Virus record (IMG/VR): IMGVR_UViG_3300036781_000382 | Span: 1-39,489 of that record | Direction: 5' to 3' (one strand) | Source: a virus | DNA: 39,489 bases | Shown here: piece by piece, positions 11,754 through 39,306 of the stretch | Layout of the letters: every line of letters starts with the position of its first letter | Position numbering within the stretch: position 1 is the first letter of the stretch | Program-made: the position numbers and the translations under genes | The notes under the pieces: model-generated | What the model saw: the letters and a program-made list of their open reading frames with translations, nothing else | The model's database searches: none | Told to the model about the DNA's origin: nothing

Positions 11754-12577
11754 AGATGGAGTGGGTGACAATTCGCCCTAACGGAAAGCCAGTAGAACCG
11801 GGCACATTCTGCCGGGTTCTGGATCTGGAAGATGGAACCCACCCGATCGCTTTCTACGGCAAAACCCAGGAAGAAGTAAACGACAAAATCGCGCTGAATA
11901 ACCTTCACGCGAGGAAAGCCCTGGAACGGCGCACCGAAGCCACACCGGAGCCGGAAACGCCCATCCTTATCAGGCCTCGCAGTCGCCTCACAGCCGAAGA
12001 GACGATGCAGGCGACCGCCGACCTATCGAACCCGGCCAAGGCCGCGGAGGCAGCCGCCAGGCTTGTGCAGGATGCAACTGGTATCGACCCGCGCAAGATG
12101 GCGATGGATACGTTCAAGGCGCGAGCCGACGACTGGATCCGAGAACACCCGGAATTTTACAACTGCAAGCCGAACCGGACCCTGCTGGCCACTAAGCTGG
12201 GCCAGATCGTGGACGGCGATGTATCTCTGATCACAAAAGAGATCATGACGCAGACGTACAAACAAATGATTGCTGCAGGCGAACTGTTTGAAGAACCTGC
12301 TAGCGATGAAGTAACAGTGGAAGTCGAACCGCTTCCTGGGGAAAGCCAGGTTCAGCGTGTTGAGACACCTAGAAGCGGGCGCAATGGGACAGGAACGCCA
12401 AGCACGAGGTTTCGCGGCGGAGCCCCCAGCACCCAAACAAAGGCACTCAAATACACGCGGGAGCAGATCGACAGGATGAGCATGGCGAAATCCAAGGCGC
12501 TGATAGAAAGCGGCGACAAGGACTACGCGGAGGCCTGTGAGTTCTACTACCCGTCAACGGTGAAGGTTTCAGCCTGA
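11750..12577 (+). CDS. Scaffold-like protein
   Basis: 275 aa, directly before the major capsid gene, where short-tailed phages encode the scaffold. It is charged and helical with a disordered Pro/Gly/Thr-rich middle (about residues 185-235) and a short helical C-terminus (YTREQIDRMSMAKSKALIES), a usual scaffold design. The N-terminal 60 residues (FCRVLDLEDGTHPIAFYGKT) look like a small folded domain. Residues 120-180 (WIREHPEFYNCKPNRTLLAT) form another helical unit. The call rests on gene order and composition. Confidence 0.6.
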   Translation: MKMEWVTIRPNGKPVEPGTFCRVLDLEDGTHPIAFYGKTQEEVNDKIALNNLHARKALERRTEATPEPETPILIRPRSRLTAEETMQATADLSNPAKAAEAAARLVQDATGIDPRKMAMDTFKARADDWIREHPEFYNCKPNRTLLATKLGQIVDGDVSLITKEIMTQTYKQMIAAGELFEEPASDEVTVEVEPLPGESQVQRVETPRSGRNGTGTPSTRFRGGAPSTQTKALKYTREQIDRMSMAKSKALIESGDKDYAEACEFYYPSTVKVSA

Positions 12578-21934: not shown

Positions 21935-23791
21935 ATGGGACCGACAACGAGCGGAGCACAGGCAGCAGACCAGATACAGGCTTCGGCCCCATCCGGGAGC
22001 GAATGGGACGCGGCAGCCGCCCCACAGGCGACGCCAGCGGCCCCACAGCAAGCCGCCAGCACTCCGCCGACCCAAACCCCTACCCCAGCGCCCGGGAGCG
22101 CGCCCACGCCGCCTCCTGCAGCCCCTGCAGCGACTCAGCCGGTGGTTGTGACCTCCCAGAAGAAAGGGGGGATTATGGGCGTGGTCGACTCCATAGCCGA
22201 TGCCCTGGCCGGCAAGACCAAGCCAGAGATCGGGACCGATGCCCAGGGCAACCAGTACGTGAAGCAGCAATCCCTCACCAGGGGAGAGCAGTGGGTGAGG
22301 ATCGGCGCCGAATTGCTGGGCGGAGCAGCGAAAGGCTGGGCGGCCGGAAAGGGACGGAACCCCGGAGCTGCAGCGGCGGCCGGGTTCGATGAGGGGCAGA
22401 AACTCGTCCAACAGGGTGCGGAGCAAACCGCGGCAGCTCAGAAGGAAATCCTGGCCAACGCCAACTACCAGAAGCTGCGCATGGACGCCGCCGAGCAGTC
22501 CTGGCACCTGGCCGCAATCAAGCACGAGGCCACCCAGCACGATGTTGAATTCGCCCAGGGGCAGGAAGATCGTTTGATGAAGGTGGACAAGGCCACTCTT
22601 CTAGGAACAGCCGCAAACCCGGCCGACATAAACGAGATCCTGAAGGTGGACCCCAACGTGATGGAAAACATGATCAAAAACCATCAAATTGAGATCCTTC
22701 CCCACTACAACCCGGACGGCACCACCGCGGGGATCCGCGTGTTCAAGATGCCCGATGGATACCGCAACACGATCGAGCCGGCCGGAACCGTCTTCCACAC
22801 CTTCGACAGCACGACTGGCCAATACATCGAGCACCACAGCAGTGACCCGATTACCGCAGGCGACGTAGATGACTACGAGACCGCTGCGAGCAATGCCGCA
22901 CAGAAATTCAAGATCTCCCAGGCCAACCTCGAGAAGACGCAGGCGCAGACCGAGGAATCGAAGGCGAATGCAACTAAGGTTCCCGGAGAGATTGCGAAGA
23001 ACGCCGCACAGACAGCAGAGAGCAGAGCTGCAGCAGCGAAGGATTACGCGGAAACCACGATGCTCAAAGAAGGTTCCGACGCTACCACAATCCAGTCGAA
23101 CGCGAAGCAACTTGTGGAGGGGACGGCCGACCCGTCGAACCTGAGCAAACGCAGCAAGACTTACGATGCCACGTTGGCAGCGGCAAACACATATTCGCTG
23201 GCGACCACAGGCAAGCCGTTCGATATCGCAAAGGCGGTAGGAGACTACAAGTTTGCCACCAACGCGAACACGTATAACACTCTCAATTTTCTCAATTCGC
23301 TCACCGGCCGCGACAACCAAAGCGGCAACCTTGGAACCGTCGTGGCTATGTCTCAGGCGCTCGGCCAAACCAAATACCCAGCTCTGAACAATGCTGAACA
23401 GTGGGCGAAGATTTCAGCCGGTAATCCCCAAGTCGCCGCATACCGCGCGGCACTCACTGAAACCAGCGACCAAATCGCCAAGATTCTGCAGGGCGGAGGA
23501 ACCGGCAGCGGAACCAGCGACGCGAAGCTGCGGCAGGCCGGCAACTTGATGGACAAGAGTTTCAACGCAGACCAGATCAAGGATGTGGCCACAACGCTGC
23601 GCACACTGCTGGCGAATCGTAAGCAGGAGATCATCGGGGATAACCGCTACCTGCAGTCCTGGCACGGTACGGCACAGCCTCACGTAGCCGCAAACGCGAA
23701 CGCGGTGCAGCCGGGAGAGCCCACAGCTAAAGGCGCAAACGGTGAAACGCTTGTAGTGCGAGGGGGACAATGGGTGCCAGCGGCGCAGTAA
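21935..23791 (+). CDS. Candidate internal virion (ejection) protein 2
   Basis: 618 aa. The N-terminal 70 residues are a Pro/Ala/Thr linker, followed by GGIMGVVDSIADALAGKTKP and RIGAELLGGAAKGWAAGKGR, Gly/Ala helices that could enter membranes. The rest is a long, mostly helical, Ala/Gln/Lys-rich body (about residues 130-450). No lytic or hydrolase motif is seen. The length, composition and position between tail and fibre genes fit proteins ejected with DNA to span the envelope. GAGGGG precedes the ATG. Confidence 0.6.
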   Translation: MGPTTSGAQAADQIQASAPSGSEWDAAAAPQATPAAPQQAASTPPTQTPTPAPGSAPTPPPAAPAATQPVVVTSQKKGGIMGVVDSIADALAGKTKPEIGTDAQGNQYVKQQSLTRGEQWVRIGAELLGGAAKGWAAGKGRNPGAAAAAGFDEGQKLVQQGAEQTAAAQKEILANANYQKLRMDAAEQSWHLAAIKHEATQHDVEFAQGQEDRLMKVDKATLLGTAANPADINEILKVDPNVMENMIKNHQIEILPHYNPDGTTAGIRVFKMPDGYRNTIEPAGTVFHTFDSTTGQYIEHHSSDPITAGDVDDYETAASNAAQKFKISQANLEKTQAQTEESKANATKVPGEIAKNAAQTAESRAAAAKDYAETTMLKEGSDATTIQSNAKQLVEGTADPSNLSKRSKTYDATLAAANTYSLATTGKPFDIAKAVGDYKFATNANTYNTLNFLNSLTGRDNQSGNLGTVVAMSQALGQTKYPALNNAEQWAKISAGNPQVAAYRAALTETSDQIAKILQGGGTGSGTSDAKLRQAGNLMDKSFNADQIKDVATTLRTLLANRKQEIIGDNRYLQSWHGTAQPHVAANANAVQPGEPTAKGANGETLVVRGGQWVPAAQ

Positions 23792-25947
23792 CCTCCAGCC
23801 TTCCCCCCTTACCACCTGGGGCGACTTTGAACACACCACCGGCACCCTCACCAGGATTGCCGCCGTTGCCGCCTGGGGCGACACTCACCGGTACAGCCCC
23901 ACCAACTACGCCACCAACTACCCCGCCCGGTGCGCACACCCCACCGCCCGCAACTGTGCCGAAGAGCTCAGGCCTGATGGATCAGCTCCACGCGATCGCA
24001 GCTCTACCCGCTCAGTTCGAGAAGGATTACAACGCGGGAAATCTGGGCGTGGGCCAGGTCCCGGCCGAGTTCTTTGCGGGAATCGGCAAGACGCTTCAGA
24101 ACCACATCGGCGGCGCGATCCAGCTTTACCAGAAAGAGCAGTCGACCGAACACGCGCCGCAGGCCTGGGCGATGCAAAAACTCGGTCTGGGAAAAGACGT
24201 ACCGGCCGAGAGAGAGCAGCAAATGCTGAAGGAAGCGGCGGACTGGCTGAAGCAGAACAGCGACACGCACGGATTTTGGGAAGGCGCGGGAGGGGTTGGA
24301 GAAAACATCGGTGAGCTGCTGGGACCGGCCGAGTTGATGAAACTCGCAGAAGCGCCTGCAGCTGCAGCAAAGGGCGCTCAGACAGTCGAAGGCCTCACCT
24401 CCGCGCAAAAGCTGCAGCAGGGCGCGAAGGTCGCAGCTCTCCTGAAGGCTCACCCAGTGGTCGACCGTCTAGTCGGGATCGGGTTGCGCGCACTCAAGAT
24501 GGGCGCAGAGACGGGCACGACGGCCGGCGCACAGACCTTAGTCGATACAGGGGGAGACACGCGCCAGGCAGCCGAGGCCGCAGCGGCCGGCGCAGCCGGT
24601 GGCGGCGTATTGGGAACCGTGGCAGAAACAGTTACCGCAGCTCGCGCAGCAGCTGCAGCCAGGGCAGCTCAGGCAGCCGCCCACGAAGCCGCGCCGGCAG
24701 TGGAAGCGGAACGCACCGCGGCCATGCTCGCGGATCGTCAGGCACGCGCGCAGAGGGGCATCAAGGACGTTGTGAGGGACGCCACAGAGAACGCCCTAAA
24801 CCGGCTGAATGAAGCACGGCGGCCGACGACGCGAGTTGTCCCAGGTGAGACTGTGCCGGCACGAGCTGGGGCGGGCACGATCAGCGAGGATCTAGCGGCA
24901 AAGGGAGCTGCCGGCAAAACCGGATCCACCGCGTCGACAGTGCCCGCAAGTGTTGTCCCGAAAAACCCGATTATCGAAGAGCTGGGATCGCAGGCAGCCA
25001 CGATACCAGGCCGAATCTGGGATGAGGTATCGGGCGCAGCTACCGAACACACGACGCCTCCCAACTTCGCGCCAGTGAACGCGCAAGCGATCGCAGCCGA
25101 CACGAACAGTTTCGGACACGGAGCGGAGAAGATCCGCGAAGCGGCCCAGCCGGTGTACGACACACTGGACCAGGCGACAGGCGGACAGTTTGCAAAGCTG
25201 CAGAAGGCGCGCGCGACGGCCTACAAGGCTAACGACTTCGCCAAAGTGGAGAGCACCGAAAACGCGATTGACGAATTGCTGAGCAAGAAGCCCGACCAGG
25301 TCAACGCACAGGACTACGCGACAGCTCGCAGCGCGTGGAGAGATTCGAAGATCCTGGACCGGCTCCACGCCGTCACCGAAGGCGCATTCAACGGGATCAG
25401 CGAGGAGATGGCCAGCCAGCCAGGGACCGGCGCACGGCTCTTGCGATCAGGAACGAAAGAAGGGGGTTCGCTGCAGACCAGGCTGGGCGCGTTTCTGCGA
25501 AGCGAGAAGAACATCCGCGAAGCGCAAATGGTTATTGGACCCGATGGAGTGGCGAACCTCTACCGAGCATCGCACCTGGTGAGTAACCCGGAGACAGCCA
25601 AGGCGACCAAGGCGATTGCGGAAGAGGTGGCGAAACAGTTTCCTGCGCCGAAGCCCCCAGGGATCGGCCGCAAAGTGGTGGACACGGTGGCTGGAGCTGC
25701 AGGGGGAGCAGCTGCAGCCGGCGCAGCTCACGCCGTGGGGGTTCCGGCGTGGGCGGCGTATCCGGCCGGAGCTGCAGGCGGCGTGGGAGTGGCGGAGGGA
25801 GCGCGGTTTGTCTTGCGTAGAATGTTGACCAGTCCGAAGGTGGGCCAGCTCATGGAGTACGCAGTGCAAAATCGCGTACCCGCAAAGATGGCCGCAGGCC
25901 TGATCTCGGCGCAGATCCAGAGAGAGCAGCAGGGAGGGACGCAGTAG
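23770..25947 (+). CDS. Candidate internal virion (ejection) protein 3
   Basis: 725 aa, starting 22 bp before the previous stop with GGGGG as ribosome site. The Pro-rich head contains LPPLPPGATL twice. Then come helical segments, an Ala-rich stretch (about residues 270-315) and a C-terminal Gly/Ala hydrophobic region (VAGAAGGAAAAGAAHAVGVP, then WAAYPAGAAGGVGV) that could form membrane helices. Probably ejected with DNA. The coding sequence contains one copy of a 50-bp direct repeat (24431-24480). Confidence 0.6.
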   Translation: MGASGAVTSSLPPLPPGATLNTPPAPSPGLPPLPPGATLTGTAPPTTPPTTPPGAHTPPPATVPKSSGLMDQLHAIAALPAQFEKDYNAGNLGVGQVPAEFFAGIGKTLQNHIGGAIQLYQKEQSTEHAPQAWAMQKLGLGKDVPAEREQQMLKEAADWLKQNSDTHGFWEGAGGVGENIGELLGPAELMKLAEAPAAAAKGAQTVEGLTSAQKLQQGAKVAALLKAHPVVDRLVGIGLRALKMGAETGTTAGAQTLVDTGGDTRQAAEAAAAGAAGGGVLGTVAETVTAARAAAAARAAQAAAHEAAPAVEAERTAAMLADRQARAQRGIKDVVRDATENALNRLNEARRPTTRVVPGETVPARAGAGTISEDLAAKGAAGKTGSTASTVPASVVPKNPIIEELGSQAATIPGRIWDEVSGAATEHTTPPNFAPVNAQAIAADTNSFGHGAEKIREAAQPVYDTLDQATGGQFAKLQKARATAYKANDFAKVESTENAIDELLSKKPDQVNAQDYATARSAWRDSKILDRLHAVTEGAFNGISEEMASQPGTGARLLRSGTKEGGSLQTRLGAFLRSEKNIREAQMVIGPDGVANLYRASHLVSNPETAKATKAIAEEVAKQFPAPKPPGIGRKVVDTVAGAAGGAAAAGAAHAVGVPAWAAYPAGAAGGVGVAEGARFVLRRMLTSPKVGQLMEYAVQNRVPAKMAAGLISAQIQREQQGGTQ
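24431..24480 (+). repeat. 50-bp direct repeat, copy A
   Basis: Matches 35143-35192 at 46 of 50 positions by my count: an identical 19-bp left arm (starting TCGCAGCTCTCCTGAAGG), a 10-bp middle with 4 changes and an identical 21-bp right arm (ending CTAGTCGGGATC). It lies inside the third ejection gene but in a different codon phase from copy B, so protein homology cannot explain it. Flanks do not match. Confidence 0.85.
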
Positions 25948-26244
25948 ATGCCTCACGAATGGGTCGAGAAGCCTTCGGTAAGATTTATTCCCCCACAAGG
26001 TGCTATGCAGTTCGAGATAACGCACTTCATCGACGGAAGGCCATGCGAGCACCCGTACAGCCTATGGGTGGAAGCTGGAAAATGCAGTGTAAGGCCGGAT
26101 CGTCCGTGCAGCTGCACCGAAGGGTGGAGAGTAATTTTAGAGTCACTCACCCCCCGCAACCAGGACCGCTGTATTGCAGTCATGCGGCAAAAAAGGTGTA
26201 CTTCCGTCTCAGTTTGCGTGCACCAAGGGAGGATCATCGAGTAA
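25948..26244 (+). CDS. Cys-rich small protein
   Basis: 98 aa, ATG directly after the TAG of the gene before. Eight Cys residues are spread over residues 33-90, including C-S-C and a final V-C-V-H, with short beta segments (MQFEITHFIDGRPCEHPYSL). Not recognised. It could be a metal-binding or disulphide-bonded fold. It joins the next gene by TAATG. Confidence 0.5.
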   Translation: MPHEWVEKPSVRFIPPQGAMQFEITHFIDGRPCEHPYSLWVEAGKCSVRPDRPCSCTEGWRVILESLTPRNQDRCIAVMRQKRCTSVSVCVHQGRIIE

Positions 26245-27317
26245 TGAGCCGCCGACCAAAGAGCCCCGCTATCCACATCGCACGACGCCACCAGAGCGCA
26301 CCGACAGCCCATCCCGCTGAGAAAGCGATTCTCAGTGCGGCCACTGAGATTGACGAAGGCCGATACGTCGAGGACCGGCGCGGATCGGACGAACGCGCGT
26401 TAGACGGCCTGGGCCTAGCGTTAGGCATGGGAACCGATGGGGTTGCAGTCGGAGACGCGCCCAGCTTCGAGGACTGGCACCGCCAAGAGAAAGCCACCCG
26501 GCAGCTGAACGAGCTGGGAAGGCACCCCCGCGTCCAGGAAGCAATGGAGCGAATGCAGCACGAGCTCGAAGACGCCAAGACTCCCGAGGAAGAAGTTGAG
26601 ATGCGATGGCGACTCCACGAGATCCTTGCGGCCGAACAGGAACGCAACAAGTGGACAGGGCAGGAGAGATGGCAGGGGCGCGAGAACGAAGAGATGCGCC
26701 GCGGCGAAGTCCTGAGCCCCTGGCAATTCCACGAACGACTATGCAAGGCAGGGATCGGCCGCAGCGACCGGGTTCTGCTGAAGGACGATCGAATCATCAA
26801 AGTGTCCGCTAACGGGAAAAGCGGATTGCTCGCCCTGGTAGTGCGTAATCCGGCATGGAACAGTCAGACGGCCATCCAGCACGACTACGCCCAGGTGAAG
26901 GCGCGGGAGATGAAAGACTCGGCCGAAGCCGAACTGATGAAAGCCAAGAAGCTGCGCAAGGCCAAGTACAACGCAGAAGCGGACAAGAGTTTTCATCTGG
27001 CCGGCGATATGATCCAGACCGCGACGGAGATGCTTCTAGAGCGCGAGGCCTACGAGGTTGAGAATCCGCAGTTCCTCCGAGTCGGGACGCTGCAGGCCCC
27101 ACTGGGAACCGAATGGATGATCATGAATTTCGATGAATGGGGCGTACCCACCAGCGCAAAGTACGTAGGGTGGAGGACGGCGCTGCTAACCATGATTCGC
27201 GCGCGAGCGATTACCGAAGAGGAGGCGCATCGAGCCTTCCCGCTCACGAGCGGCCCAGCTGCAGACTGGTATCTGCAGCAGCTCTACATGCGACGCAACG
27301 GAGAGCTGGTGAACTGA
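26244..27317 (+). CDS. Unknown helical protein
   Basis: 357 aa from the ATG at 26244; GGGAGG lies 11 bp upstream and the start overlaps the previous stop. A reading from 25959 passes through the preceding gene and is rejected. The N-terminus is basic (SRRPKSPAIHIARRHQSAPT), the middle is a Glu/Arg-rich helix (about residues 80-150), and residues 210-260 form another charged helix (AQVKAREMKDSAEAELMKAK). No enzyme motif is seen. Probably virion-related by position, with low certainty. Confidence 0.6.
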   Translation: MSRRPKSPAIHIARRHQSAPTAHPAEKAILSAATEIDEGRYVEDRRGSDERALDGLGLALGMGTDGVAVGDAPSFEDWHRQEKATRQLNELGRHPRVQEAMERMQHELEDAKTPEEEVEMRWRLHEILAAEQERNKWTGQERWQGRENEEMRRGEVLSPWQFHERLCKAGIGRSDRVLLKDDRIIKVSANGKSGLLALVVRNPAWNSQTAIQHDYAQVKAREMKDSAEAELMKAKKLRKAKYNAEADKSFHLAGDMIQTATEMLLEREAYEVENPQFLRVGTLQAPLGTEWMIMNFDEWGVPTSAKYVGWRTALLTMIRARAITEEEAHRAFPLTSGPAADWYLQQLYMRRNGELVN

Positions 27318-27532
27318 TGAACGAAACCGAAGAGCGCAACCGGCAGCGAAGCGAGATGTGGCGTAAACAGGTTCTTCCGAAGTTTGTAGAGGCGGGACTG
27401 GGAGATGCCCAGACGGACGCCGCTAAGAAAATGTTTTATGCAGGGTTTGAGGCTGGATGGGACAGCCATCGCGCGGCGCTGATGAAGGAATTCATCCAGG
27501 AAAACCAGAAACAGAAGGTGAACCTAGCATGA
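27317..27532 (+). CDS. Small helical protein
   Basis: 71 aa with a TGATG overlap to the gene before. Charged and helical throughout (EERNRQRSEMWRKQVLPKFV, MFYAGFEAGWDSHRAALMKE). Not recognised. Coupled on both sides, so likely real. Confidence 0.55.
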   Translation: MNETEERNRQRSEMWRKQVLPKFVEAGLGDAQTDAAKKMFYAGFEAGWDSHRAALMKEFIQENQKQKVNLA

Positions 27533-27789
27533 AGAGAACCGCGAGTGCAGCCAAGGTAAAACGGAGCGGGATCCGCGCGGTCGACCAGGGCACCGTCTAT
27601 GACGTGACAGGCAAGATGCGGTGGCTTACGCGCGAGATCGAAAGCGGCAAGCAGGGACACATCACCGACGTGCTTATCGTAACGCGGGCGAGCAACGGCC
27701 AGATTGGGAGTTTTGCCTTTGGAACCTCCCACCGCGAAAGAGCGCACCACATGATCACCACGGTCAAAAACAGGCTGGAGCCGGCATGA
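27529..27789 (+). CDS. Small basic protein
   Basis: 86 aa from the ATG at 27529 (ATGA overlap). An N-terminal Lys/Arg stretch, then ITDVLIVTRASNGQIGSFAF and a helix (ERAHHMITTVKNRL), giving an alpha/beta look. No family is recognised. Its last codons overlap the lysin candidate by ATGA. Confidence 0.55.
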   Translation: MKRTASAAKVKRSGIRAVDQGTVYDVTGKMRWLTREIESGKQGHITDVLIVTRASNGQIGSFAFGTSHRERAHHMITTVKNRLEPA

Positions 27790-28241
27790 CCCAGAAAGAC
27801 GTTGACCGCGTTCTACTGGTGCGCTACGCCGTGCAGGAAGCAGGACAGCGCGGCAGTCTCGAACAGATGATGGCAATTTGTTACTGTCTGCGGAACCGGG
27901 TGCGCGCCGGCTGGGGAGATTGGATCGCCATAATCCAGAGCGCGACGGACCACGGCGCACACACACCGGAAGACGATGCCCGTCTGGACCCGAACAATCG
28001 AGCCTACCAGCGACTGCTGCGCGACGTGGATGACATTTATTTTGGCCACGGGTCGACGAAGAGTTTAGACGACGGCCCAGGCGGAGACCTGGAGGACAGC
28101 CTGTGCGAGAAAAACCACGAGTGTCTTTATTGGGCGTTCCTCGATCGTCCGATGTTGCCCCAGTTTGCGGCCACGATCGTGCGCGACCCGGAGAACCACG
28201 CGAACCGGGCAACGATGGGGCTTATGATGTTCTACGAGTAA
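27786..28241 (+). CDS. SleB-like cell-wall hydrolase candidate
   Basis: 151 aa. Residues 9-41 (VLLVRYAVQEAGQRGSLEQM then MAICYCLRNRVRAGW) resemble the start of the SleB/CwlJ hydrolase_2 domain (PF07486), where the Glu of 'EA' (here E18) is the proposed catalytic acid and LRNRV follows. The remaining part is shorter and less typical than SleB. It may be the endolysin, since no other lysin is visible. No signal peptide or membrane segment is present, so release would need a holin. Confidence 0.5.
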   Translation: MTQKDVDRVLLVRYAVQEAGQRGSLEQMMAICYCLRNRVRAGWGDWIAIIQSATDHGAHTPEDDARLDPNNRAYQRLLRDVDDIYFGHGSTKSLDDGPGGDLEDSLCEKNHECLYWAFLDRPMLPQFAATIVRDPENHANRATMGLMMFYE

Positions 28242-28291
28242 GCCCAGACAATCCCACGCGGTTCTAGCTGACCGAAAGGCCACAACGCAAA

Positions 28292-29329
28292 ATGGCAGTG
28301 ACACCGCAAATCACGCTGAATGCGAAGCTGCAGGATCTCAGTGGTGACTCGGCCGGATCCACGGCGAACCCGGCAATTCTTCGGATCGCACTCGCGGGCT
28401 TCGGACTGACGTTGCCGTGCATACCCGGCACCTCGAACGTCGCACAGCCAGGCCCAGAAGACTACCTGGACAGCGGGACCGGAGCCCAAGCAAAACTATG
28501 GGGCAACGACGTAATATTTCCGGCCGGCACCTACTACGCCATCACGCTACTGGACGGGGACGGCAACGTCCTGCAGACCGGGCGCTACCGATTCACCGGA
28601 ACACAAACACTCGACCTCAGCGAAGCACCGCAGCTCGTAGATGGAGCGAACGCGCTAATCGGAGCTGTGCCGAACGGCGCATATCCTGGAAACACCTACA
28701 CGGTTCCCCTGCCGGCATACGGTGGCACGGTGCCCTCGGCGCTCTACTACAACGGAGGCCTGCAGGACCTCGAGGAATTCACTCTCGCCGGCGAGACACT
28801 TTTTTTGAACTTTGAAACCTTCCCAGGTGACAAGCTTTTTCTGAGTTACGGAGCCGTGAGCCCAGCCGGCCTGCCGATGCAGGCCTACGTCGCGATTGCA
28901 AACGGAGTCTACCCAGGCACCGTCTACACCCTTCCCACTCCACCCCCCAATGCTCAGCTAATCGGAATCTTTCTGAACGGAGGATTCCAGCCACCCTACG
29001 ACGCTACCCACGCGCCAACCGGATACACCATCGCAGACCAGCAGGTCCTGACGATGGGGTTCGAGACAGCGGACGGCGACCAGATCCAGGCGCTGTACAT
29101 GGTGACACCGTTCACCGTTGCAGGAGGGTTCTGCGCCGGCGCGACACCTGGAACCTCGTTCACACTGCCCACGATGCCCACAGCAGCGGCCCAGGGCCAG
29201 CTTATCGGCCTCTACACCGTATTCAACAGCTTTCTGCGGCCGGGGATTGACTACACTTTCACCGGAACGGCAGTCACCATAAAATTCACTATCGAAGCGG
29301 GAGATGCTGTCTATGCGTATTACATCTAG
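28292..29329 (+). CDS. Tail fibre/spike protein with three repeats
   Basis: 345 aa. The N-terminal 118 residues (DVIFPAGTYYAITLLDGDGN, VLQTGRYRFTGTQTLDL) resemble the virion-anchor domain of many tail fibres. Three repeats of about 70 residues follow (near 121-190, 197-270, 273-345), each with a PG-x-x-YT(L/V)P turn, a hydrophobic LIGxF-like strand and a final GDxL/I-x-x-Y. Probably a trimeric fibre binding the cell surface. The ATG has only a distant GAAAGG. The next fibre gene starts inside its end. Confidence 0.65.
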   Translation: MAVTPQITLNAKLQDLSGDSAGSTANPAILRIALAGFGLTLPCIPGTSNVAQPGPEDYLDSGTGAQAKLWGNDVIFPAGTYYAITLLDGDGNVLQTGRYRFTGTQTLDLSEAPQLVDGANALIGAVPNGAYPGNTYTVPLPAYGGTVPSALYYNGGLQDLEEFTLAGETLFLNFETFPGDKLFLSYGAVSPAGLPMQAYVAIANGVYPGTVYTLPTPPPNAQLIGIFLNGGFQPPYDATHAPTGYTIADQQVLTMGFETADGDQIQALYMVTPFTVAGGFCAGATPGTSFTLPTMPTAAAQGQLIGLYTVFNSFLRPGIDYTFTGTAVTIKFTIEAGDAVYAYYI

Positions 29330-32231
29330 GATCACTCGTTGCCTCGTGATTGCTGCAGCTCTCGCCACCGCCGCGGCCTCGCCGGCGCAGAACAAGTACA
29401 ACGCTTATACCCAGATCAACTGGGTTCCACTTAGTGGCAGCGGTGCACCGACTTTGCCCTGCAATTCGACTTACTACGGCATGCAATACGTCGACATCAC
29501 CAATCAACAGGTCTACGCCTGCGCTTCCGGGGGATGGTTCAAGAGTACGCAATCCTCACCAATCATCTTTGTAGGCGCGTGGAGCTCCACGGTGACCTAT
29601 TCGATGAATCAGGCCGTGGGCTACAACGGAAACACCTACGTTAGCCTGCAGAACAATAACCTGAATCAGAATCCAGCGACCCAGACGAACTACTGGATGC
29701 TTCTTATTGGACCAGGCGGAGGGGTCCAGACATTCAACGGCCGAACCGGGAACGTGACCCTGCAGACCGGCGACGTTAATGCAGTGGGCACCATCTCCAA
29801 TTCGACCACCGGCAACGCAGCCACGGCCACGGCACTGGCCACAACGCCCACTCCCTGCAGCGGCAGCCAGCTCGCCGGCGGCGTCGATGCGCACGGAAAT
29901 TCCATCAACTGCGCCACAGCTGGACCATCTGCCCTCACTCTCACCGGCGATGTAACCGGAACTGGAACCGGCACGGTGGCCACCAGCGTGGTCAAAGTCA
30001 ACGGCGCGGCGGTGCCGGCATCCAAGCCCGCGCTGGGATCCAACTCCCTGGGACAGCTCATCGACGGAACCGCAGGGATCTCGACTGCGCTGAACACAGG
30101 TCCGGGACTATTCATCGGCGGCGACTCTATCGCTTGCGGAAGCTTCCTCACGACGACAGCGCAAAGCGCTTGGTCATTCAACCTGCGAACGATCGTCGGC
30201 GGAGTCTGGAGTCTGAATTGCCGGCCTGGAGACCAGCTGATTGACACGACCTCCGTCTACATGAATCCCGCGATCGCGCCCACCGCAGACGGACACTCGC
30301 CCCTGGTGGTGATCGAGCCAAGCACGAACGACGTTACGAACTACGGAGCGAGCACGGACCTGGAGAACTCGTTTCAAGGCATGTACGCAGCAGCCGTCTA
30401 CCTGTCCGGCATTCCGATTTCACTCCAGCTCTACCCGGCCACTTCGCTAACCGGATGGACCCCCACCGGGACCTGGGCAGCGGACGCCACACAGCAGAAC
30501 ATCTTCCCGGACTACGTTTCAACCACCAACGGCAATACATTGGCCTACGCCGCCACGTGCGCCGCTTCATGCGTTGGAGTCCTGGAGTTTCCAGTGTGGA
30601 ACGCAAACGGAGGAACCTTCACGGTTTCGCTCAACGGGACGCCGATTGCCAATCCCTATGGAGGGGGAACGACCTTCTACAACGCCGGATTCAACGGAGC
30701 CACAATCACAGCAGGATCCAGCACCGCGTCGACTTTCAGCAGGTCAGCTGTGCGAGTCCCGATGAGCGCCGGCTCGAACACGATTACAGTCACCGTCACG
30801 TCGTCCACGTCCGGCAGTAACAAGGTGGGAGTGAGCTGGTTTGGAATCGTCCCGATCGCAAGTATTCAGAACCCACCGGTAGAGGCCATGAGCACGCTGC
30901 ACCGGGACGACGGCCTGGATACGCTCAGCGGCATCTACACAGGCCTGATTTCGAGTGTGATCACGCAGGCCGCGACAGACGGGCTGAACGCCTACTATGC
31001 CAACACCCGCGATGCGATGCTGAACACCAACGTGGCCGTGAAGTTCTATACGCCCGCTGCAGGGACCACCTTCGTTCCAACAGGATGGGTTTCGGATCAG
31101 GGTGTGAGCTACGCGGTGACGAGCACGCCGCTGGTGCTGGTGGGCAGCTCGCCGGCACAAGGACAGTACGCGGAGAGCGCTGGAACCTACACGTTCAACG
31201 TTGCTGACTCAGCCACCCCGCTGAATGTGTCTTACACGATCAACTGTGGAGCCAACCAGACCGCCATGTTTGCTAACTGCTACGCCAACTCTCTGCACCC
31301 GAACAACTACGGAGACGCGGTGATGGCAGCGGTGGCAGCCTCTTCGATTCCACAACGCTACGTGACGGGGAACAATGTTCCGCAATCGAACTACCCATAT
31401 CGCAACTACGTTTCAAACGGCGTGGCACCTAACCAGATGATGAGCCCGAACGCCGGAGGAATCCCAGAAGCTGCGACTCCGACCAACGGCCTGTTCGTGC
31501 CCGGGATCAATTTCCTGTGCAACGTGAACCAGTGCTATTTCGAGACTGTAACCGGAAACGGACTGGAAACCTACCTCCCAAATATCGGCGGCGGTGTCGT
31601 GTGGTCTCTGGCCGTCTACACCTCTTCGGGGGGCCAGCCTACGCCAAATACGCCAACCCAGCTGATGGACACCCTAACGGGGAATGGAGTGAGAACCTGG
31701 AACAACGTCAACTCGATTGTCAATAGCGTAAACAATGTCACCTTCAATTCCCAATTCGGCAACACGAGGCCTAGCTTTGGGGGTGCCTACATGCAGGTGA
31801 ACGATTATTCGTACTTCTATCCTGGTATCCCCACCGTGGGACTGGCCAACCTGGATGCAAATGGCGAAACGGGACTGCGGTTCTACGGCCAAGGCACATC
31901 GGCGCTGCAGATCGAAATGGGACTCGCCAACGCGACCAACGATTCGGGAGACGGGGCCTGCGCACTGCAGAACGTCTGGTACCTGTCGGACTTCACATCG
32001 GGATCCTGCGCGATCCGAGCGCAGATGGCAGCTAACGGAGTCTTTCAACTTAACGTGGCTGCGCGAGTGCCCAGCTCTACAGTCGCAGCTCTGCCCTCGG
32101 CCACAACATTGGGCGCCGGGGCGATTGTGCTGGTGACGGACGCAAACTCGTTCACCGGGGGCACCTGCACCGGAGGCGGCACGGATTTAATTTTCGCAGT
32201 TAGCGACGGAAGCGCATGGGTGTGCCAATGA
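29313..32231 (+). CDS. Tail fibre with signal peptide, CBM-like and SGNH hydrolase domains
   Basis: 972 aa from ATG 29313 (GGAG 9 bp upstream). Residues 1-26 look like a Sec signal peptide (CLVIAAALATAAASPAQ, cleavage after PAQ). A W-x-x-x-V-x-Y carbohydrate-binding pattern follows near 90-130 (AVGYNGNTYVSLQNN), then the fibre motif FNGRTGNVTLQTGDV. An SGNH/GDSL esterase domain has block I GGDSIACGS (Ser272), block III EPSTNDV (Asn339-Asp340) and block V SLHPNNYGD (His662). A beta-sandwich of roughly 130 residues is inserted between blocks III and V. It would deacylate surface or capsule glycans. The C-terminal 290 residues are beta-rich and unassigned. Confidence 0.75.
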   Translation: MRITSRITRCLVIAAALATAAASPAQNKYNAYTQINWVPLSGSGAPTLPCNSTYYGMQYVDITNQQVYACASGGWFKSTQSSPIIFVGAWSSTVTYSMNQAVGYNGNTYVSLQNNNLNQNPATQTNYWMLLIGPGGGVQTFNGRTGNVTLQTGDVNAVGTISNSTTGNAATATALATTPTPCSGSQLAGGVDAHGNSINCATAGPSALTLTGDVTGTGTGTVATSVVKVNGAAVPASKPALGSNSLGQLIDGTAGISTALNTGPGLFIGGDSIACGSFLTTTAQSAWSFNLRTIVGGVWSLNCRPGDQLIDTTSVYMNPAIAPTADGHSPLVVIEPSTNDVTNYGASTDLENSFQGMYAAAVYLSGIPISLQLYPATSLTGWTPTGTWAADATQQNIFPDYVSTTNGNTLAYAATCAASCVGVLEFPVWNANGGTFTVSLNGTPIANPYGGGTTFYNAGFNGATITAGSSTASTFSRSAVRVPMSAGSNTITVTVTSSTSGSNKVGVSWFGIVPIASIQNPPVEAMSTLHRDDGLDTLSGIYTGLISSVITQAATDGLNAYYANTRDAMLNTNVAVKFYTPAAGTTFVPTGWVSDQGVSYAVTSTPLVLVGSSPAQGQYAESAGTYTFNVADSATPLNVSYTINCGANQTAMFANCYANSLHPNNYGDAVMAAVAASSIPQRYVTGNNVPQSNYPYRNYVSNGVAPNQMMSPNAGGIPEAATPTNGLFVPGINFLCNVNQCYFETVTGNGLETYLPNIGGGVVWSLAVYTSSGGQPTPNTPTQLMDTLTGNGVRTWNNVNSIVNSVNNVTFNSQFGNTRPSFGGAYMQVNDYSYFYPGIPTVGLANLDANGETGLRFYGQGTSALQIEMGLANATNDSGDGACALQNVWYLSDFTSGSCAIRAQMAANGVFQLNVAARVPSSTVAALPSATTLGAGAIVLVTDANSFTGGTCTGGGTDLIFAVSDGSAWVCQ

Positions 32232-32653
32232 TCGCATTATCGAAATGTCTGCCAATGGTGTTTGCAGTTTGCCTGCTCGAGATTCCGGCGTTAGGCCAGA
32301 CCGCACCGCCGCCACCGGCCCGAGCCGTCCAGGCCGGCCGGCCGGCGATCGACTTTACCCAGACCATCCTAGGAATCGACGGGAAGGCCATCCTGGAGCT
32401 GCCGAGCGGTGGACCACCCTTGACCCTAAGCGAAGTCGCGGTGACGGCCCTGGTGACCATGACGGCCGACGATCAGCGAATGCCTGGGATTGAGAAGTTC
32501 AAGCTGGATGTACTAGCGCGGAAGGTCTACAACAACAAGTCCGCAGAGCTCTCGGCCGAGGAAATCGCCACCATCAAGGACCGGATCGGAAAGGTCTGCA
32601 GCCCGCCCATAGTGGGCGCGGCGTGGCGTCTACTGGACCCCGCGCAGAAGTAA
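32216..32653 (+). CDS. Secreted small protein after the fibre
   Basis: 145 aa, overlapping the fibre stop by 16 bp; ATG 32228 (ATGA overlap) is an alternative start. A signal peptide is clear (KCLPMVFAVCLLEIPALGQT), cleaved near residue 27. The mature part has LGIDGKAILELPSGGPPLTL, a helix, ELSAEEIATIKDRIGKV and a final VGAAWRLLDP. The pattern from LTLSEVAV to the end resembles small phage proteins I have seen without signal peptides. Together with the fibre it makes a pair of exported products. Confidence 0.6.
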   Translation: MGVPMIALSKCLPMVFAVCLLEIPALGQTAPPPPARAVQAGRPAIDFTQTILGIDGKAILELPSGGPPLTLSEVAVTALVTMTADDQRMPGIEKFKLDVLARKVYNNKSAELSAEEIATIKDRIGKVCSPPIVGAAWRLLDPAQK

Positions 32654-32675
32654 ACGCCGGCAGAAGGTTTTCAAA

Positions 32676-32705
32676 TTGACATTGCCCACACTCTGCCCAT
32701 AGTGT
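32676..32705 (+). promoter_or_regulatory. Promoter of the rightward early operon
   Basis: TTGACA (32676-32681), an 18-bp spacer, TAGTGT (32700-32705), then 6 bp (AGAGGC) to the ATG at 32712. The transcript would start at or next to the ATG. The spacer holds a direct repeat TGCCCAC/TGCCCAT 11 bp apart, a possible operator. The same design precedes the leftward gene at 4202. Confidence 0.55.
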
Positions 32706-32711
32706 AGAGGC

Positions 32712-32933
32712 ATGGAACGTGTTTGGGTCGTGGAGCATCGCCAAGCCGATGGGTCATGGACGCCGATTCACCCGGCGCTGTCCTGGCATGAAGCGGACAG
32801 GTTCAAAGAACATACCTCTAAATCCATTCGTCCAGACTGCAGGATCACCACGTACACGCCGGAAGGCGCCGACGCCGCACCCAGAAAGCCTCCCACCGGA
32901 GAGTCAGTTTTAGAAAGGAATCAAGATGCCTGA
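32712..32933 (+). CDS. Small protein, first gene of the early operon
   Basis: 73 aa. VWVVEHRQADGSWTPIHPAL and a helix HEADRFKEHTSK suggest a small beta-alpha fold. Not recognised. Its promoter suggests leaderless translation; AGAGGC just before the ATG is too close to act as a normal ribosome site. It overlaps the ATPase gene by 8 bp. Confidence 0.6.
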   Translation: MERVWVVEHRQADGSWTPIHPALSWHEADRFKEHTSKSIRPDCRITTYTPEGADAAPRKPPTGESVLERNQDA

Positions 32934-34344
32934 GAAGAAAGCACCTAAGAAGAACCCGCCCAAAAAGGATCCGGCCGAGGCCGCGCCCACCCCAGCACCG
33001 AAGCCGGTACCGGAGGGTTCGCAGGTCATAGAGCTATTCGTTGAAAACATCATGAAGGTTCGCTGCGCCCACATTAAGCCGAAAAACAGCGTGGTCCAGA
33101 TCACCGGCAAGAACGGCCAAGGCAAAACCTCCGTGCTTCGCGCGATCGCGTGGGCCCTCACCGGAACGTCCGACATTCCCAGCCGGCCGATCCGCGCCGG
33201 CCAGAAGTCGGGGATTATCAAGATGGACCTGGGCGACCTGGTGGTGACGCGGTATTTTACTGCGATCGACCCGGACAAGAGCGACAAGGGAATGGCCTAC
33301 ACCACGCGCCTACTGGTCGAAGGTAAGAGGCGCGAACAGTTCCGAACCCCGCAGACCGTCCTGGACGCGCTGATAGGCAAGATCAGTTTTGATCCGCTGG
33401 CCTTTACCCGGATGGACGGCAAGAAGCAGCTGGAGACCCTGCGCGGCCTGGTCACGTTCGATATCGACATTGACCAGCTGGATGCCGAACAGAAAGTCGA
33501 CTACGACGAACGCCGGCAGGCCGGCCGCGAAGTCGACTCGCGCAAGGCACGCATCGCGGAGATGGAGCGACCAGACCCGGCACTCCCCACGGAGCTAGTC
33601 GACACCGCCGAGATCACCAAGCGCCTGGAGGGGGCAGCAAACCACAACAGCGTGGTGGCGTCGCAGAGGCAGCTGCAGGCACGCAAGCGAGAGCAAGCAC
33701 AGCAGGAGAAGGACCGCGTTCTTTCGATGATGGAAGATATCCGAGTGCTGCAGGAACAGATTGAAGGCCTGCGCCATTCGATAGAAGCGGCCACTAAAAC
33801 TTCATGCCGGCTGAGCGACGAGGCCGACGCGATGACCATAGACGCCGAAACCGACACGGCGACCGTAGCAGCCGAGTTGACCCAGGCTAACGCGGTGAAT
33901 CACCGAATCGGAGCTGCAGCACGGTTCCGCGAGGTTGAAGAGGAACTGCGCGAGGGAATGGCCTACTGGATGAAGCTGGACACCCGCATCAAGGAACGTG
34001 CAGAACAGCGCACGGCCGCGATCGGGCGCGCCAAGATGCCGATTGCCGGCCTGAGCATCGGAGACGGCGAGGTGCTTTACCAAGGGCTGCCATTCGGCCA
34101 GGCATCGAACGCCGAACAGATCCGGGTGAGCATGGCCCTGGCGATGGCCAGCAACCCGAAGCTGCGGGTGTTGCGGATCTCGGACGGCAGCCTGCTCGAT
34201 TCCGACAGCATGGGGCTGATTACGGCCGAGGCGGAGAAGCACGGTTTCCAGGTCTGGATTGAACGCGTCGACAGCACTGGTGCTGTGGGCGTAGTGATGG
34301 AAGACGGCAACGCCAGTGGAGAGGAAGTGGTGCAACCCAAATGA
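32926..34344 (+). CDS. SbcC/RecF-like AAA (ABC-type) ATPase
   Basis: 472 aa. A Lys/Pro-rich tail (residues 1-30) precedes a RecF/SbcC N-terminal domain: strand-rich ELFVENIMKV, then Walker A ITGKNGQGKTSVL (61-69 core) and the strand LGDLVVTRYF. Residues about 175-350 are coiled coil (QQEKDRVLSMMEDIRVLQEQ). The C-terminal lobe has SNAEQIRVSMALAMASNPKL as the ABC signature region and LRVLRISDGSLLDSDS as Walker B and D-loop. Similar ATPases are frequent in phage replication/recombination modules. No SbcD-type nuclease is encoded beside it. AAAGGAA precedes the ATG. Confidence 0.82.
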   Translation: MPEKKAPKKNPPKKDPAEAAPTPAPKPVPEGSQVIELFVENIMKVRCAHIKPKNSVVQITGKNGQGKTSVLRAIAWALTGTSDIPSRPIRAGQKSGIIKMDLGDLVVTRYFTAIDPDKSDKGMAYTTRLLVEGKRREQFRTPQTVLDALIGKISFDPLAFTRMDGKKQLETLRGLVTFDIDIDQLDAEQKVDYDERRQAGREVDSRKARIAEMERPDPALPTELVDTAEITKRLEGAANHNSVVASQRQLQARKREQAQQEKDRVLSMMEDIRVLQEQIEGLRHSIEAATKTSCRLSDEADAMTIDAETDTATVAAELTQANAVNHRIGAAARFREVEEELREGMAYWMKLDTRIKERAEQRTAAIGRAKMPIAGLSIGDGEVLYQGLPFGQASNAEQIRVSMALAMASNPKLRVLRISDGSLLDSDSMGLITAEAEKHGFQVWIERVDSTGAVGVVMEDGNASGEEVVQPK

Positions 34345-34508
34345 AAAAAGGTGATTCCGCCGCCACGTTCAAATTGAAGTGTGTCGGCTGCCAGAAAACC
34401 GAACTGCGACCAGCGGCGGACTGCGTAGAGCAGCCTTACTGCAGCTGCGGGATGCCAATGGTTCTCCAATCCGTAGACGTTCGCAGTGTGGAGGGTAATC
34501 ATGCCTAG
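34341..34508 (+). CDS. Zinc-ribbon mini-protein
   Basis: 55 aa, with an ATGA overlap to the ATPase gene. C-V-G-C near residue 14 and C-S-C-G near residue 34 form a zinc ribbon (FKLKCVGCQKTELRPAADC). Its end overlaps the next gene by 8 bp. Function unknown; it may assist the ATPase or a polymerase. Confidence 0.6.
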   Translation: MKKGDSAATFKLKCVGCQKTELRPAADCVEQPYCSCGMPMVLQSVDVRSVEGNHA

Positions 34509-34743
34509 CGGAGAATGCAAGCTGAACCGCTTGACAAACGCGCTGAAGGACCTGGACCGCGACCAGCGATCGGCAGCCCTGAACGCGTTTGCGGGTGCGC
34601 TTTCGACGCTGGTGTCAGATAGTGATTGGGACTTCGCCATTCAGTGCGCCCTGATACTCCCGCCGTACTTGCAGAACAGGATAACCGGCGTGGTGCTACC
34701 CGATGACTCCGGACCGGGCGACGAGGAGACCAATCCGAAATGA
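34501..34743 (+). CDS. Small helical protein
   Basis: 80 aa from ATG 34501 with GGAGGG 6 bp upstream. LTNALKDLDRDQRSAALNAF and FAIQCALILPPYLQNRITGV form helices; the tail is acidic. Not recognised. It is coupled by ATGA to the next gene. Confidence 0.6.
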   Translation: MPSGECKLNRLTNALKDLDRDQRSAALNAFAGALSTLVSDSDWDFAIQCALILPPYLQNRITGVVLPDDSGPGDEETNPK

Positions 34744-35027
34744 CAACCACGTGTCCCCAGTGCCATGCCGTGTACGACGATGCCGAAAGGTTCACAATCT
34801 GCCCGCACAGCCCAATCTTTGCGGACCCCCAGGATCTGGAACGGAAGAAGCTGGGCATATCCCTACTCGGAAAGACAATCCGCTGCGCTCACCAGGTCGA
34901 CGTCGGCCCAGATCGCCGGGTGCACACACTCCACTGGAACGGGATGGTGGAGATTGACGGACTAGTGGGCGAGTTCGCGCCCCACCTGTTCGTCGTATGC
35001 ACACCGGAGGAGGATAAAAATCCGTGA
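34740..35027 (+). CDS. Small zinc-ribbon protein
   Basis: 95 aa, ATGA overlap. C-P-Q-C-H near residue 5 and C-P-H near residue 21 suggest one zinc site; a C-A-H and a final VVCTPEE follow a beta-rich part (VHTLHWNGMVEIDG). Not recognised. Its end carries GGAGGAGG, the ribosome site for the membrane protein that follows. Confidence 0.6.
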   Translation: MTTTCPQCHAVYDDAERFTICPHSPIFADPQDLERKKLGISLLGKTIRCAHQVDVGPDRRVHTLHWNGMVEIDGLVGEFAPHLFVVCTPEEDKNP

Positions 35028-35200
35028 CCACTAACCTGTTTTTGTTCGGCTTTACCGCGATAGTGGTGGTGATCATAGCGGCTTACGGATTCCTGATGCT
35101 CCAAATTTTCCATGTTCGAAACGAGATACTGCGGGCCATCCGTCGCAGCTCTCCTGAAGGCACACTCAATAGTCGACCGTCTAGTCGGGATCCCAGGTGA
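35024..35200 (+). CDS. One-helix membrane protein
   Basis: 58 aa from GTG 35024 (GTGA overlap; GGAGGAGG 9 bp upstream). Residues 4-26 (NLFLFGFTAIVVVIIAAYGF) form one membrane helix, followed by a basic cytoplasmic-type tail (RNEILRAIRRSS). It could be a holin-like or anchor protein, although its place is among early genes. The final 20 residues are encoded by copy B of the 50-bp repeat and look low in structure. Confidence 0.6.
   Translation: MTTNLFLFGFTAIVVVIIAAYGFLMLQIFHVRNEILRAIRRSSPEGTLNSRPSSRDPR
35143..35192 (+). repeat. 50-bp direct repeat, copy B
   Basis: Same sequence as 24431-24480 except for four changes in the central 10 bp, same orientation, 10.7 kb apart. Here it encodes the C-terminal residues of the small membrane protein in another codon phase. 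GTCGAC and CTAG occur in its right arm. Confidence 0.85.
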
Positions 35201-35484
35201 TCACGCTGAATGAGTACTACCGAAAGCTGATGCTCCGCGGACTGACCAGCGCAGCCGCGGCGAACGGTAGAGACGTGGGCGACTACGAGGAACTGGACGC
35301 GACGCGCCAGGTCCTGGACTCGCACCCCCTGGATTGCCGGTGCGCGGTCTGCACCGCCTACGTGAGCGCGGCGACGCCGGCACTGGGATTGATGGCCGCA
35401 ATGGAAGTCAGAGAGAGGGAGAAGCGGGATGCCGATTCGGCCAGAGGAAAAAGCCAAGTACCCGAAAAACTGGACCGAGATTAG
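35197..35484 (+). CDS. Small helical protein with CxC..C site
   Basis: 95 aa from GTG 35197 (GTGA overlap). ITLNEYYRKLMLRGLTSAAA, then HPLDCRCAVCTAYVSAATPA with three close Cys (C-R-C-A-V-C). The C-terminal part is charged and overlaps the HNH gene by 56 bp, so this end may be less conserved. Not recognised. Confidence 0.55.
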   Translation: MITLNEYYRKLMLRGLTSAAAANGRDVGDYEELDATRQVLDSHPLDCRCAVCTAYVSAATPALGLMAAMEVREREKRDADSARGKSQVPEKLDRD

Positions 35485-35764
35485 CGACCGCATACGCTTC
35501 GAGCGCGCCGAAGGTAGGTGCGAGTTCCTTACCCTGGACGGAGAGCGCTGTACGGCCCAGCACGGCCACAGGCACCCCTTTACCGGAGCCATCGTGTGCC
35601 TCACTACCGCGCACCTGAACCACAACCCAGCAGATTGCCGGGACGTGAATCTGAAGGCCGGGTGTCAGCTGTGCCATAACCGCTGGGATGCCGCCTACCG
35701 CCTTAGAAACAGGCGGAGGCGGCACCAAGAGCAGAAGAAGACCCTAGAGCTGTTCCCAGACTAG
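35429..35764 (+). CDS. HNH endonuclease-like protein
   Basis: 111 aa. N-terminal YPKNWTEISDRIRFERAEGR leads to Cys pairs C31/C41 and C79/C82, and the beta-beta-alpha metal motif: LTTAHLNHNPADC (catalytic His 62 or 65, Asn 66) and CHNRWDAAYRLRN (His 83, Asn 84). This matches small phage HNH proteins that cleave or nick DNA, some of which aid packaging. It starts inside the previous gene. Its stop shares CTAG with the convergent leftward gene. Confidence 0.8.
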   Translation: MPIRPEEKAKYPKNWTEISDRIRFERAEGRCEFLTLDGERCTAQHGHRHPFTGAIVCLTTAHLNHNPADCRDVNLKAGCQLCHNRWDAAYRLRNRRRRHQEQKKTLELFPD

Positions 35765-36512: not shown

Positions 36513-36520
36513 AAGTTAGA

Positions 36521-36703: not shown

Positions 36704-37531
36704 TCACGGCCTAGCATTGCGCGGATCCCCAGCACCTCCCGCCATTGCAGCAGCTAGATTCTGGGCGACGATGCTTTCACGCACGGCAGCGCAATCCACG
36801 CAGTTATCAGCGTGGGCCACGTTGCATTCTGGACACCGCGCCCCGCCGTCCTCGTTGCACTCGAAGTACTCATCCAGTTGCGCCAGCTCCACACCGCAGT
36901 CAGCGCACACGGCATCTTCAGCGCCGTCGTCTGTGTCGTCGTCGTCCACTGGTTCCGGTGCCGCTGGTTTGTCGCCCAACTTCACCAACTTGCCTTTCAG
37001 CTCGCCGCGATAATAGAAATCGAGACGCCCCCGGATCGCGTCGACCAGCTCCGTCCCTTCGATGGCCACAGCGAATTGACTAAAGAAAGAACGGTACCCA
37101 CTGGAAGAGAGAAACATCCGATGCGTCTCTACTGCGCGAATCTCAAAATGGGGGAGAAGAGAACCCCAACTTCCCAGACCGCAAAGGCCATCCACTTCGA
37201 TCAGTACAGGGACGGAGGCAAACTCAAGCACGAACCGCCCAGATTGCCCCCAGAGAGGGGTAGAACCTTCGGGTGCAGCAGTCGCAGCCTTGAGCCTATC
37301 CGCGACGCTTGCGCAGCCGCACCGCCCACCGTGGATATGTTCGATGAGTAGATGCGCCTCTTTGTGGATGGAGACTGCAGCATCTGTGTCCCCCGCGAGC
37401 ATCGCGGAGTTATAGCGAACGATGAGACTGCGCCAGAAATCAATCTGGGCAGCCTCATCGTTTACGGAAGGAAAACCCGCCGTGCGTTCTTGATGTTCGA
37501 GAACCGCAAACATATTTAGCTGATCGGTCAT
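36704..37531 (-). CDS. ArdC-partner protein with zinc-finger C-terminus
   Basis: 275 aa, starting by ATGA overlap at the end of the ArdC-like gene. A mixed alpha/beta domain fills residues 1-185 (FWRSLIVRYNSAMLAGDTDA, FVLEFASVPVLIEVDGLCGL, FLSSSGYRSFF). After an acidic linker (DDDDTDDG) come Cys pairs C-A-D-C, C and C-P-E-C, C-V-D-C (about 212-255), at least two zinc sites. From memory, proteins like this often accompany plasmid ArdC genes. Function unknown. A pair of hairpins follows. Confidence 0.65.
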   Translation of the reverse strand: MTDQLNMFAVLEHQERTAGFPSVNDEAAQIDFWRSLIVRYNSAMLAGDTDAAVSIHKEAHLLIEHIHGGRCGCASVADRLKAATAAPEGSTPLWGQSGRFVLEFASVPVLIEVDGLCGLGSWGSLLPHFEIRAVETHRMFLSSSGYRSFFSQFAVAIEGTELVDAIRGRLDFYYRGELKGKLVKLGDKPAAPEPVDDDDTDDGAEDAVCADCGVELAQLDEYFECNEDGGARCPECNVAHADNCVDCAAVRESIVAQNLAAAMAGGAGDPRNARP

Positions 37532-38406
37532 GCGGCCACCTCGAAGGTTTCCGGGACCTGGGGAGACTCTGCAGCCACTGCGCGACCCATGATCAGGTCA
37601 GCCGCCTTTTGCGCGCGCTGGGCAGCTGTGACTGCCAGCCGCGCGTCCGCTTTGAAGCTGGTAAGCCAGTTGGAGATATACGCCGCATTGTGCGCGTCTA
37701 GGTCTGCGGACACCACGCCGGATTCAGCGGAAAGGAATGCGGCCGTAAATTCCGCCACCAGCTCTTCGCGCGCGTAATCCGCATCCCCGAAGTGTTTCCC
37801 GAATTTCCGATTTAGACGTTTGACTGCGCCAGTCGAATGCCCAAACTCATGGAACAGAGTGGAATAGTAGGTTTCGCGCGTGGTGAACTGGGTAGGTTCC
37901 GGCATGTAGACCGCGTCCCGCGATGGCATATAGCAAGCGCTGGAACCGCCATGCAAGAGCGCTGGCCCACCGGCATCCATGTAGGAATCCGCGATTTTTT
38001 GGGCACTCTCCAGCGGATCAAAGACGGGAGAATCGAAGGGCAATTCTTGAGGAATGCCGTCCATTTGTTCGACGTTGAAAACTGTATAGCCCTTGCACCA
38101 CGCGCGCTTGCGGTCTGTGGCGTCGTCTTTTTCAAATTGCCAAAACACGACGGGCGTTCCCGCTTGGCCCTTGCGAACCTGCGCACCGCGTTCCTGCGCT
38201 TGTTTATAGGTCATCCACTGGGTGGACGCGAACGGCGAGCATAGAAGCATCACCATATTGATACCGCGATAGGTTTTCCCGGTGGCGAAGTTGCAAGGGA
38301 GGTAGGAACCGCGCGAAGTGTTCTTCCAAGGTTGACGCCAAGGGACGACACCGGATTCTAGCTGGGCAATTAGACGGGCAGTGATCGTTTCGTATGCATT
38401 TGACAT
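37528..38406 (-). CDS. ArdC-like antirestriction protein (ssDNA-binding domain plus zincin)
   Basis: 292 aa from ATG 38406, preceded by the shared leader. The ArdC N-terminal domain covers residues 1-115 (YETITARLIAQLESGVVPWR QPW; GKTYRGIN; QVRKGQAGTPVVFWQFEK). The metallopeptidase part has HEFGH at 186-190 and a downstream E in EELVAEFTAAFL (about 214-219) as third ligand. ArdC proteins bind single-stranded DNA and protect incoming plasmids from restriction; the protease-like site is required in some. Fits a mobile element entering new hosts. The reading from 38457 includes the leader hairpin and is rejected. Confidence 0.9.
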   Translation of the reverse strand: MSNAYETITARLIAQLESGVVPWRQPWKNTSRGSYLPCNFATGKTYRGINMVMLLCSPFASTQWMTYKQAQERGAQVRKGQAGTPVVFWQFEKDDATDRKRAWCKGYTVFNVEQMDGIPQELPFDSPVFDPLESAQKIADSYMDAGGPALLHGGSSACYMPSRDAVYMPEPTQFTTRETYYSTLFHEFGHSTGAVKRLNRKFGKHFGDADYAREELVAEFTAAFLSAESGVVSADLDAHNAAYISNWLTSFKADARLAVTAAQRAQKAADLIMGRAVAAESPQVPETFEVAA

Positions 38407-38412
38407 TCTGGT

Positions 38413-38440
38413 ATTCCTTTCGGTGCTGGGCTGTGCCCAA
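38413..38440 (-). promoter_or_regulatory. Leftward leader element B (hairpin plus ribosome site)
   Basis: Minus strand: TTGGGC-ACA-GCCCAG then CACCGAAAGGAAT, ending 6 bp before the ArdC-like ATG. Same element as at 36521 and 39138. It lies in the 68-bp gap between two leftward genes, so it acts within an operon at the RNA level or carries a secondary start. Confidence 0.7.
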
Positions 38441-38474
38441 TGGGTTTTATTCGGCAAAACAATTTGTAACTAAT

Positions 38475-39237: not shown

Positions 39238-39245
39238 AGCGCTCT

Positions 39246-39306
39246 GCGGAATGGGTGCGGATCGGGTGCGGAATGGGTGCGGATCGGGTGCGGATCGGGT
39301 GCGGAT
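39246..39306 (+). repeat. 11-bp tandem repeats
   Basis: Five and a half copies of an 11-bp unit alternating between GCGGAATGGGT and GCGGATCGGGT (order A, B, A, B, B, then GCGGAT). The period is close to one DNA turn, so a protein could bind every copy on one face. They lie 8 bp from operator copy 2, upstream of the leftward promoter. Candidate partition, replication or activator sites. Reading frames through this stretch give only repetitive Gly/Cys peptides and are not genes. Confidence 0.75.

Follow-up and report, generated by a model that had tools for sequence, protein, structure and literature searches.

A 51-bp direct repeat in a putative phage-plasmid, best read as a scar of genome shuffling

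Two unrelated genes of an IMG/VR virus share a direct repeat of 51 bp, one copy in the virion region and the other at the end of a gene for a small membrane protein. The repeat is real, and it is best read as a scar of ordinary genome shuffling, giving no sign of a functional DNA site. The second copy is probably (about 0.8) an ectopic patch of the first, or of a close allele of it, left by illegitimate recombination or template switching. We infer the direction of copying, a single-event insertion, the process and the lack of function. If the repeat is such a scar, it shows how a small phage protein can gain a different tail from a fragment of another gene that is copied out of frame, a modest but clear case of protein novelty through illegitimate recombination. 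It gives no pointer to a new recombination system.

The window and its repeat

The window analyzed here, 39,489 bases long, corresponds to one entire IMG/VR virus record. Among its products are a major head protein, a terminase large subunit and a head-tail connector or portal-like protein. Comparisons were made with 17 related viral records, reached through neighbouring conserved genes, most of which cover both orthologous regions. From the gene content and the sizes of these relatives, mostly 38–44 kb, we infer that the record is a near-complete genome. At its left end, a RepA_C replication initiator is encoded on the plus strand (666–1673) and ParA on the minus strand (1924–2619), and a 17-bp iteron-like repeat, GGGTACCGTTTCATCCC, occurs there in four exact copies starting at 373, 397, 509 and 561 (span 373–577). 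Since the RepA family is also present in 6 of the 17 related records, the window is most likely a phage-plasmid, judged from these replication and partition features. The sole annotated phage with a protein related to the 981-aa ORF at 17459–20404 infects Tunturiibacter, an acidobacterium, which suggests that the host may be acidobacterial.

The copies lie in the same orientation at 24430–24480 (copy 1) and 35142–35192 (copy 2), both on the plus strand, and are identical at 47 of 51 positions. The first-pass annotation had described a 50-bp repeat matching at 46 of 50 positions, with identical arms of 19 and 21 bp. The repeat holds up, but it begins one base further upstream and the arms that match exactly are 20 and 21 bp. 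Shuffling of the window with a first-order Markov model (20 trials) gave a best match of 33/51, and the BLAST E value for the second copy is 9e-17. There is no third copy within the 39,489 bases, where the next-best match is 32/51. From copy 1 to copy 2 the differences are T to A at position 21, C to T at 25, G to A at 28 and G to A at 30; three of the four replace G or C with A or T. The variable 10-bp centre that had been proposed is correct insofar as all mismatches are confined to 10 bp, but it amounts to four substitutions, and the probability of such clustering under random placement (P ~0.014) is a post hoc figure and a poor sign of anything special.

The codon phases differ, as had been noted: copy 1 is in frame 0 of the ORF at 23770–25947, and copy 2 in frame +1 of the ORF at 35024–35200. 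From this it had been concluded that selection or recent transfer acts on the DNA. Recent copying accounts for the identity; selection is not needed.

Source and recipient genes

Copy 1 encodes VAALLKAHPVVDRLVGI, residues 221–237 of a 725-aa protein whose ORF (23770–25947, plus strand) lies in the block of virion genes. This ORF has no PHROG or Pfam match, and the protein has none among annotated phages or, when searched directly, in IMG/VR. Of the 17 related records, 16 contain a homologue at 24–29% local identity, one of the 16 being partial and weak. All full homologues in the alignment have a stretch corresponding to copy 1, and copy 1 aligns without gaps to the one in the closest homologue, from relative L003 (KTAKFLQENPRIAKLAAVG). 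Proline 229 of the 725-aa protein is a proline in 13 of 15 aligned sequences. Because a homologous stretch is present across the group, ungapped with L003, copy 1 is, on the evidence of this alignment, native to the 725-aa gene.

Copy 2 (35142–35192) encodes RRSSPEGTLNSRPSSRD, the C-terminal tail of a 58-aa protein (ORF 35024–35200, plus strand) with one transmembrane segment predicted from hydropathy. The stop codon of this ORF overlaps the start of the next gene (GTGA). Its PHROG matches are weak at most (E 0.05–0.08), and no homologue was found in the 17 related records or in a scan of IMG/VR. The gene sits between conserved genes at 32926–34344 and 35429–35764, a place where gene content varies among relatives. 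In roughly the same place, relative L009 has a 39-aa single-helix membrane ORF (11819–11938) that has no sequence similarity to the 58-aa protein; its length is about that of the membrane gene in the window minus copy 2.

Comparison of related genomes at both loci, as had been suggested, showed that the copy 1 stretch is homologous at the protein level, while the DNA of neither copy has a counterpart in the 17 records, which are distant. This absence says little about function because even the nearest relatives have diverged, being ~28% identical in the copy 1 protein. Nor does any of the 17 carry a counterpart repeat joining the structural-gene region to accessory genes; the distant repeats that they do have lie for the most part toward their right ends. 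At the DNA level, neither locus matched any annotated phage record. The suggestion that the arms be sought elsewhere also yielded nothing: the exact arms are absent from IMG/VR, the exact right arm is absent from GTDB genomes, and no host-borne relative was found in GTDB genomes.

Other short repeats occur toward the right end of the window. A 20-bp leader-like repeat, GATTCCTTTCGGTGCTGGGC, stands ahead of minus-strand genes at 36519, 38412 and 39137; read on the minus strand, it has at its end AAAGGAAT, which resembles a ribosome-binding site, and matching leader-like repeats occur near the right end of L003. Tandem 11-bp units, TGCGGATCGGG and TGCGGAATGGG, occupy 39245–39305, at the record's right end. 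An ArdC-like anti-restriction protein with a zincin-like metallopeptidase domain is encoded on the minus strand at 37528–38457.

Origin of copy 2 and the alternatives

The earlier suggestion that the repeat is a trace of recombination, and that this recombination gave the membrane protein its tail, agrees with these findings: copy 1 is native to its gene, copy 2 has no counterpart in homologues, and no homologue was found for the gene that holds it. In the proposed sequence of events, ~51 bp of the virion-region gene would have been copied while the phage-plasmid was being replicated or repaired, the donor being its own genome or a co-resident, near-identical relative. Illegitimate recombination or template switching, with end homology slight or absent, would then have placed the fragment at the 3′ end of the membrane gene, which belongs to the variable accessory region. 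The membrane protein may have tolerated the insert, its tail being replaced or extended, since 51 bp is 17 codons and leaves both the ORF and the stop/start overlap open. Copy 2 would afterwards have drifted by four substitutions. Insertion of a single ectopic patch is the most economical explanation.

When the 51 bp are cut out of the membrane ORF, it remains in frame, ends ...LRAIPR* (HVRNEILRAIPR*) and retains the stop/start overlap. Such an empty recipient site is hypothetical; none of the 17 related records carries the membrane gene, and hence none has it minus copy 2. Read directly, ATCC adjoins copy 2 on its left (35138–35141, plus strand) and is found again at 35190–35193, spanning the right edge. 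The pair is not significant alone and could possibly reflect microhomology or chance; if ATCC is counted as a duplication, the insert becomes 52 bp and the empty site has a different frame. There is no microhomology between the left junction of copy 2 and the source.

The substitutions bear on where copy 2 came from. Read in the frame of copy 1, they give one synonymous change (GCT to GCA), one V to I change from two bases in a single codon (GTG to ATA), and a P to S change at the proline shared by 13 of the 15 sequences. All four differences are non-synonymous when read in the frame of copy 2 itself. This pattern fits an origin of copy 2 within the source gene, followed by drift no longer constrained by the former frame. 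By the same scar mechanism, copy 2 could instead derive straight from the allele that a related phage carries at the virion-region gene; in keeping with this, two of the three codons that change in the frame of copy 1 do so synonymously or conservatively. Loss of the conserved proline and the failure to find such an allele in IMG/VR make it an unlikely source, though it is the strongest of the alternatives.

A functional site is less probable than either route to a scar. Identical arms inside two unrelated reading frames might be maintained by selection on the DNA if the 51-mer bound a protein acting in packaging, partition or regulation. This is quite improbable, given that there are only two copies, both within ORFs and one in a conserved stretch of protein, with no dyad and no counterpart repeat in the 17 related records; the iteron and leader repeats of the same genome look quite unlike the 51-mer. 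On these grounds neither the protein-binding site nor the packaging signal of the first-pass annotation is supported. Equally slim is the chance of a lineage-specific site for partition, dimer resolution or packaging that happens to lie in two frames and is recognized by an unknown protein. No tRNA, attachment site, or Rfam or other known RNA element was found.

The arm-spacer-arm layout had also suggested a recombinase-like or dimer-binding site, and in a phage-plasmid that has iterons and encodes RepA and ParA a role in dimer resolution of a plasmid prophage is plausible. A tyrosine or serine recombinase site was nevertheless rejected, and we regard it as very improbable. The arms are not inverted repeats (arm 1 matches the reverse complement of arm 2 at 7–9 of 20 positions), and the best dyad score, 4 per copy, is no better than shuffled means of 4.0–4.2 (P ~0.7). 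The record has no match to PF00589 or PF00239, the integrase and resolvase families, though a host-encoded enzyme is possible as the cognate recombinase. An active direct pair 10.7 kb apart would delete the structural genes, and the 51-mer is absent from the 17 relatives. Differing centres block strand exchange by tyrosine recombinases, and the centres of the two copies differ. A template/variable repeat pair of a diversity-generating retroelement was likewise rejected: the record has no RVT_1 reverse transcriptase, and the copies differ at only four positions, one a T/C mismatch. Least probable of all is a chimeric join in this metagenome-derived contig, for the four differences leave exact shared stretches of just 20 and 21 bp, no longer than the k-mers that assemblers commonly use, and the flanking gene order on both sides agrees with that of relatives.

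Comparison with known systems

Comparison of the two copies gives the arm-centre-arm look generally known from loxP, dif and res. Here the arms are not inverted, no recombinase was detected, the centres differ, and the direct copies flank structural genes.

Closer parallels are found in illegitimate recombination. Its double form was reportedly described in transforming bacteria by Hulter and Wackernagel in 2008, and a short-patch version is known. Two papers cite double illegitimate recombination in bacteria (PMC8116780; PMC13344027). In both that process and the event proposed here, a short ectopic segment is integrated with little or no homology at both ends. The setting differs, being transforming bacteria there and a putative phage-plasmid here, where the edges show at most a possible ATCC microhomology and the mechanism is deduced from one static sequence.

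Illegitimate recombination has also been discussed as a way in which short stretches of high identity arise in phage mosaics (PMC2327257). The present repeat resembles these in being a short patch of high identity with unrelated surroundings and no recognized border signal, in a phage genome. It differs in that donor and recipient are in one genome, and in that the patch, far below gene length, is translated in a different frame.
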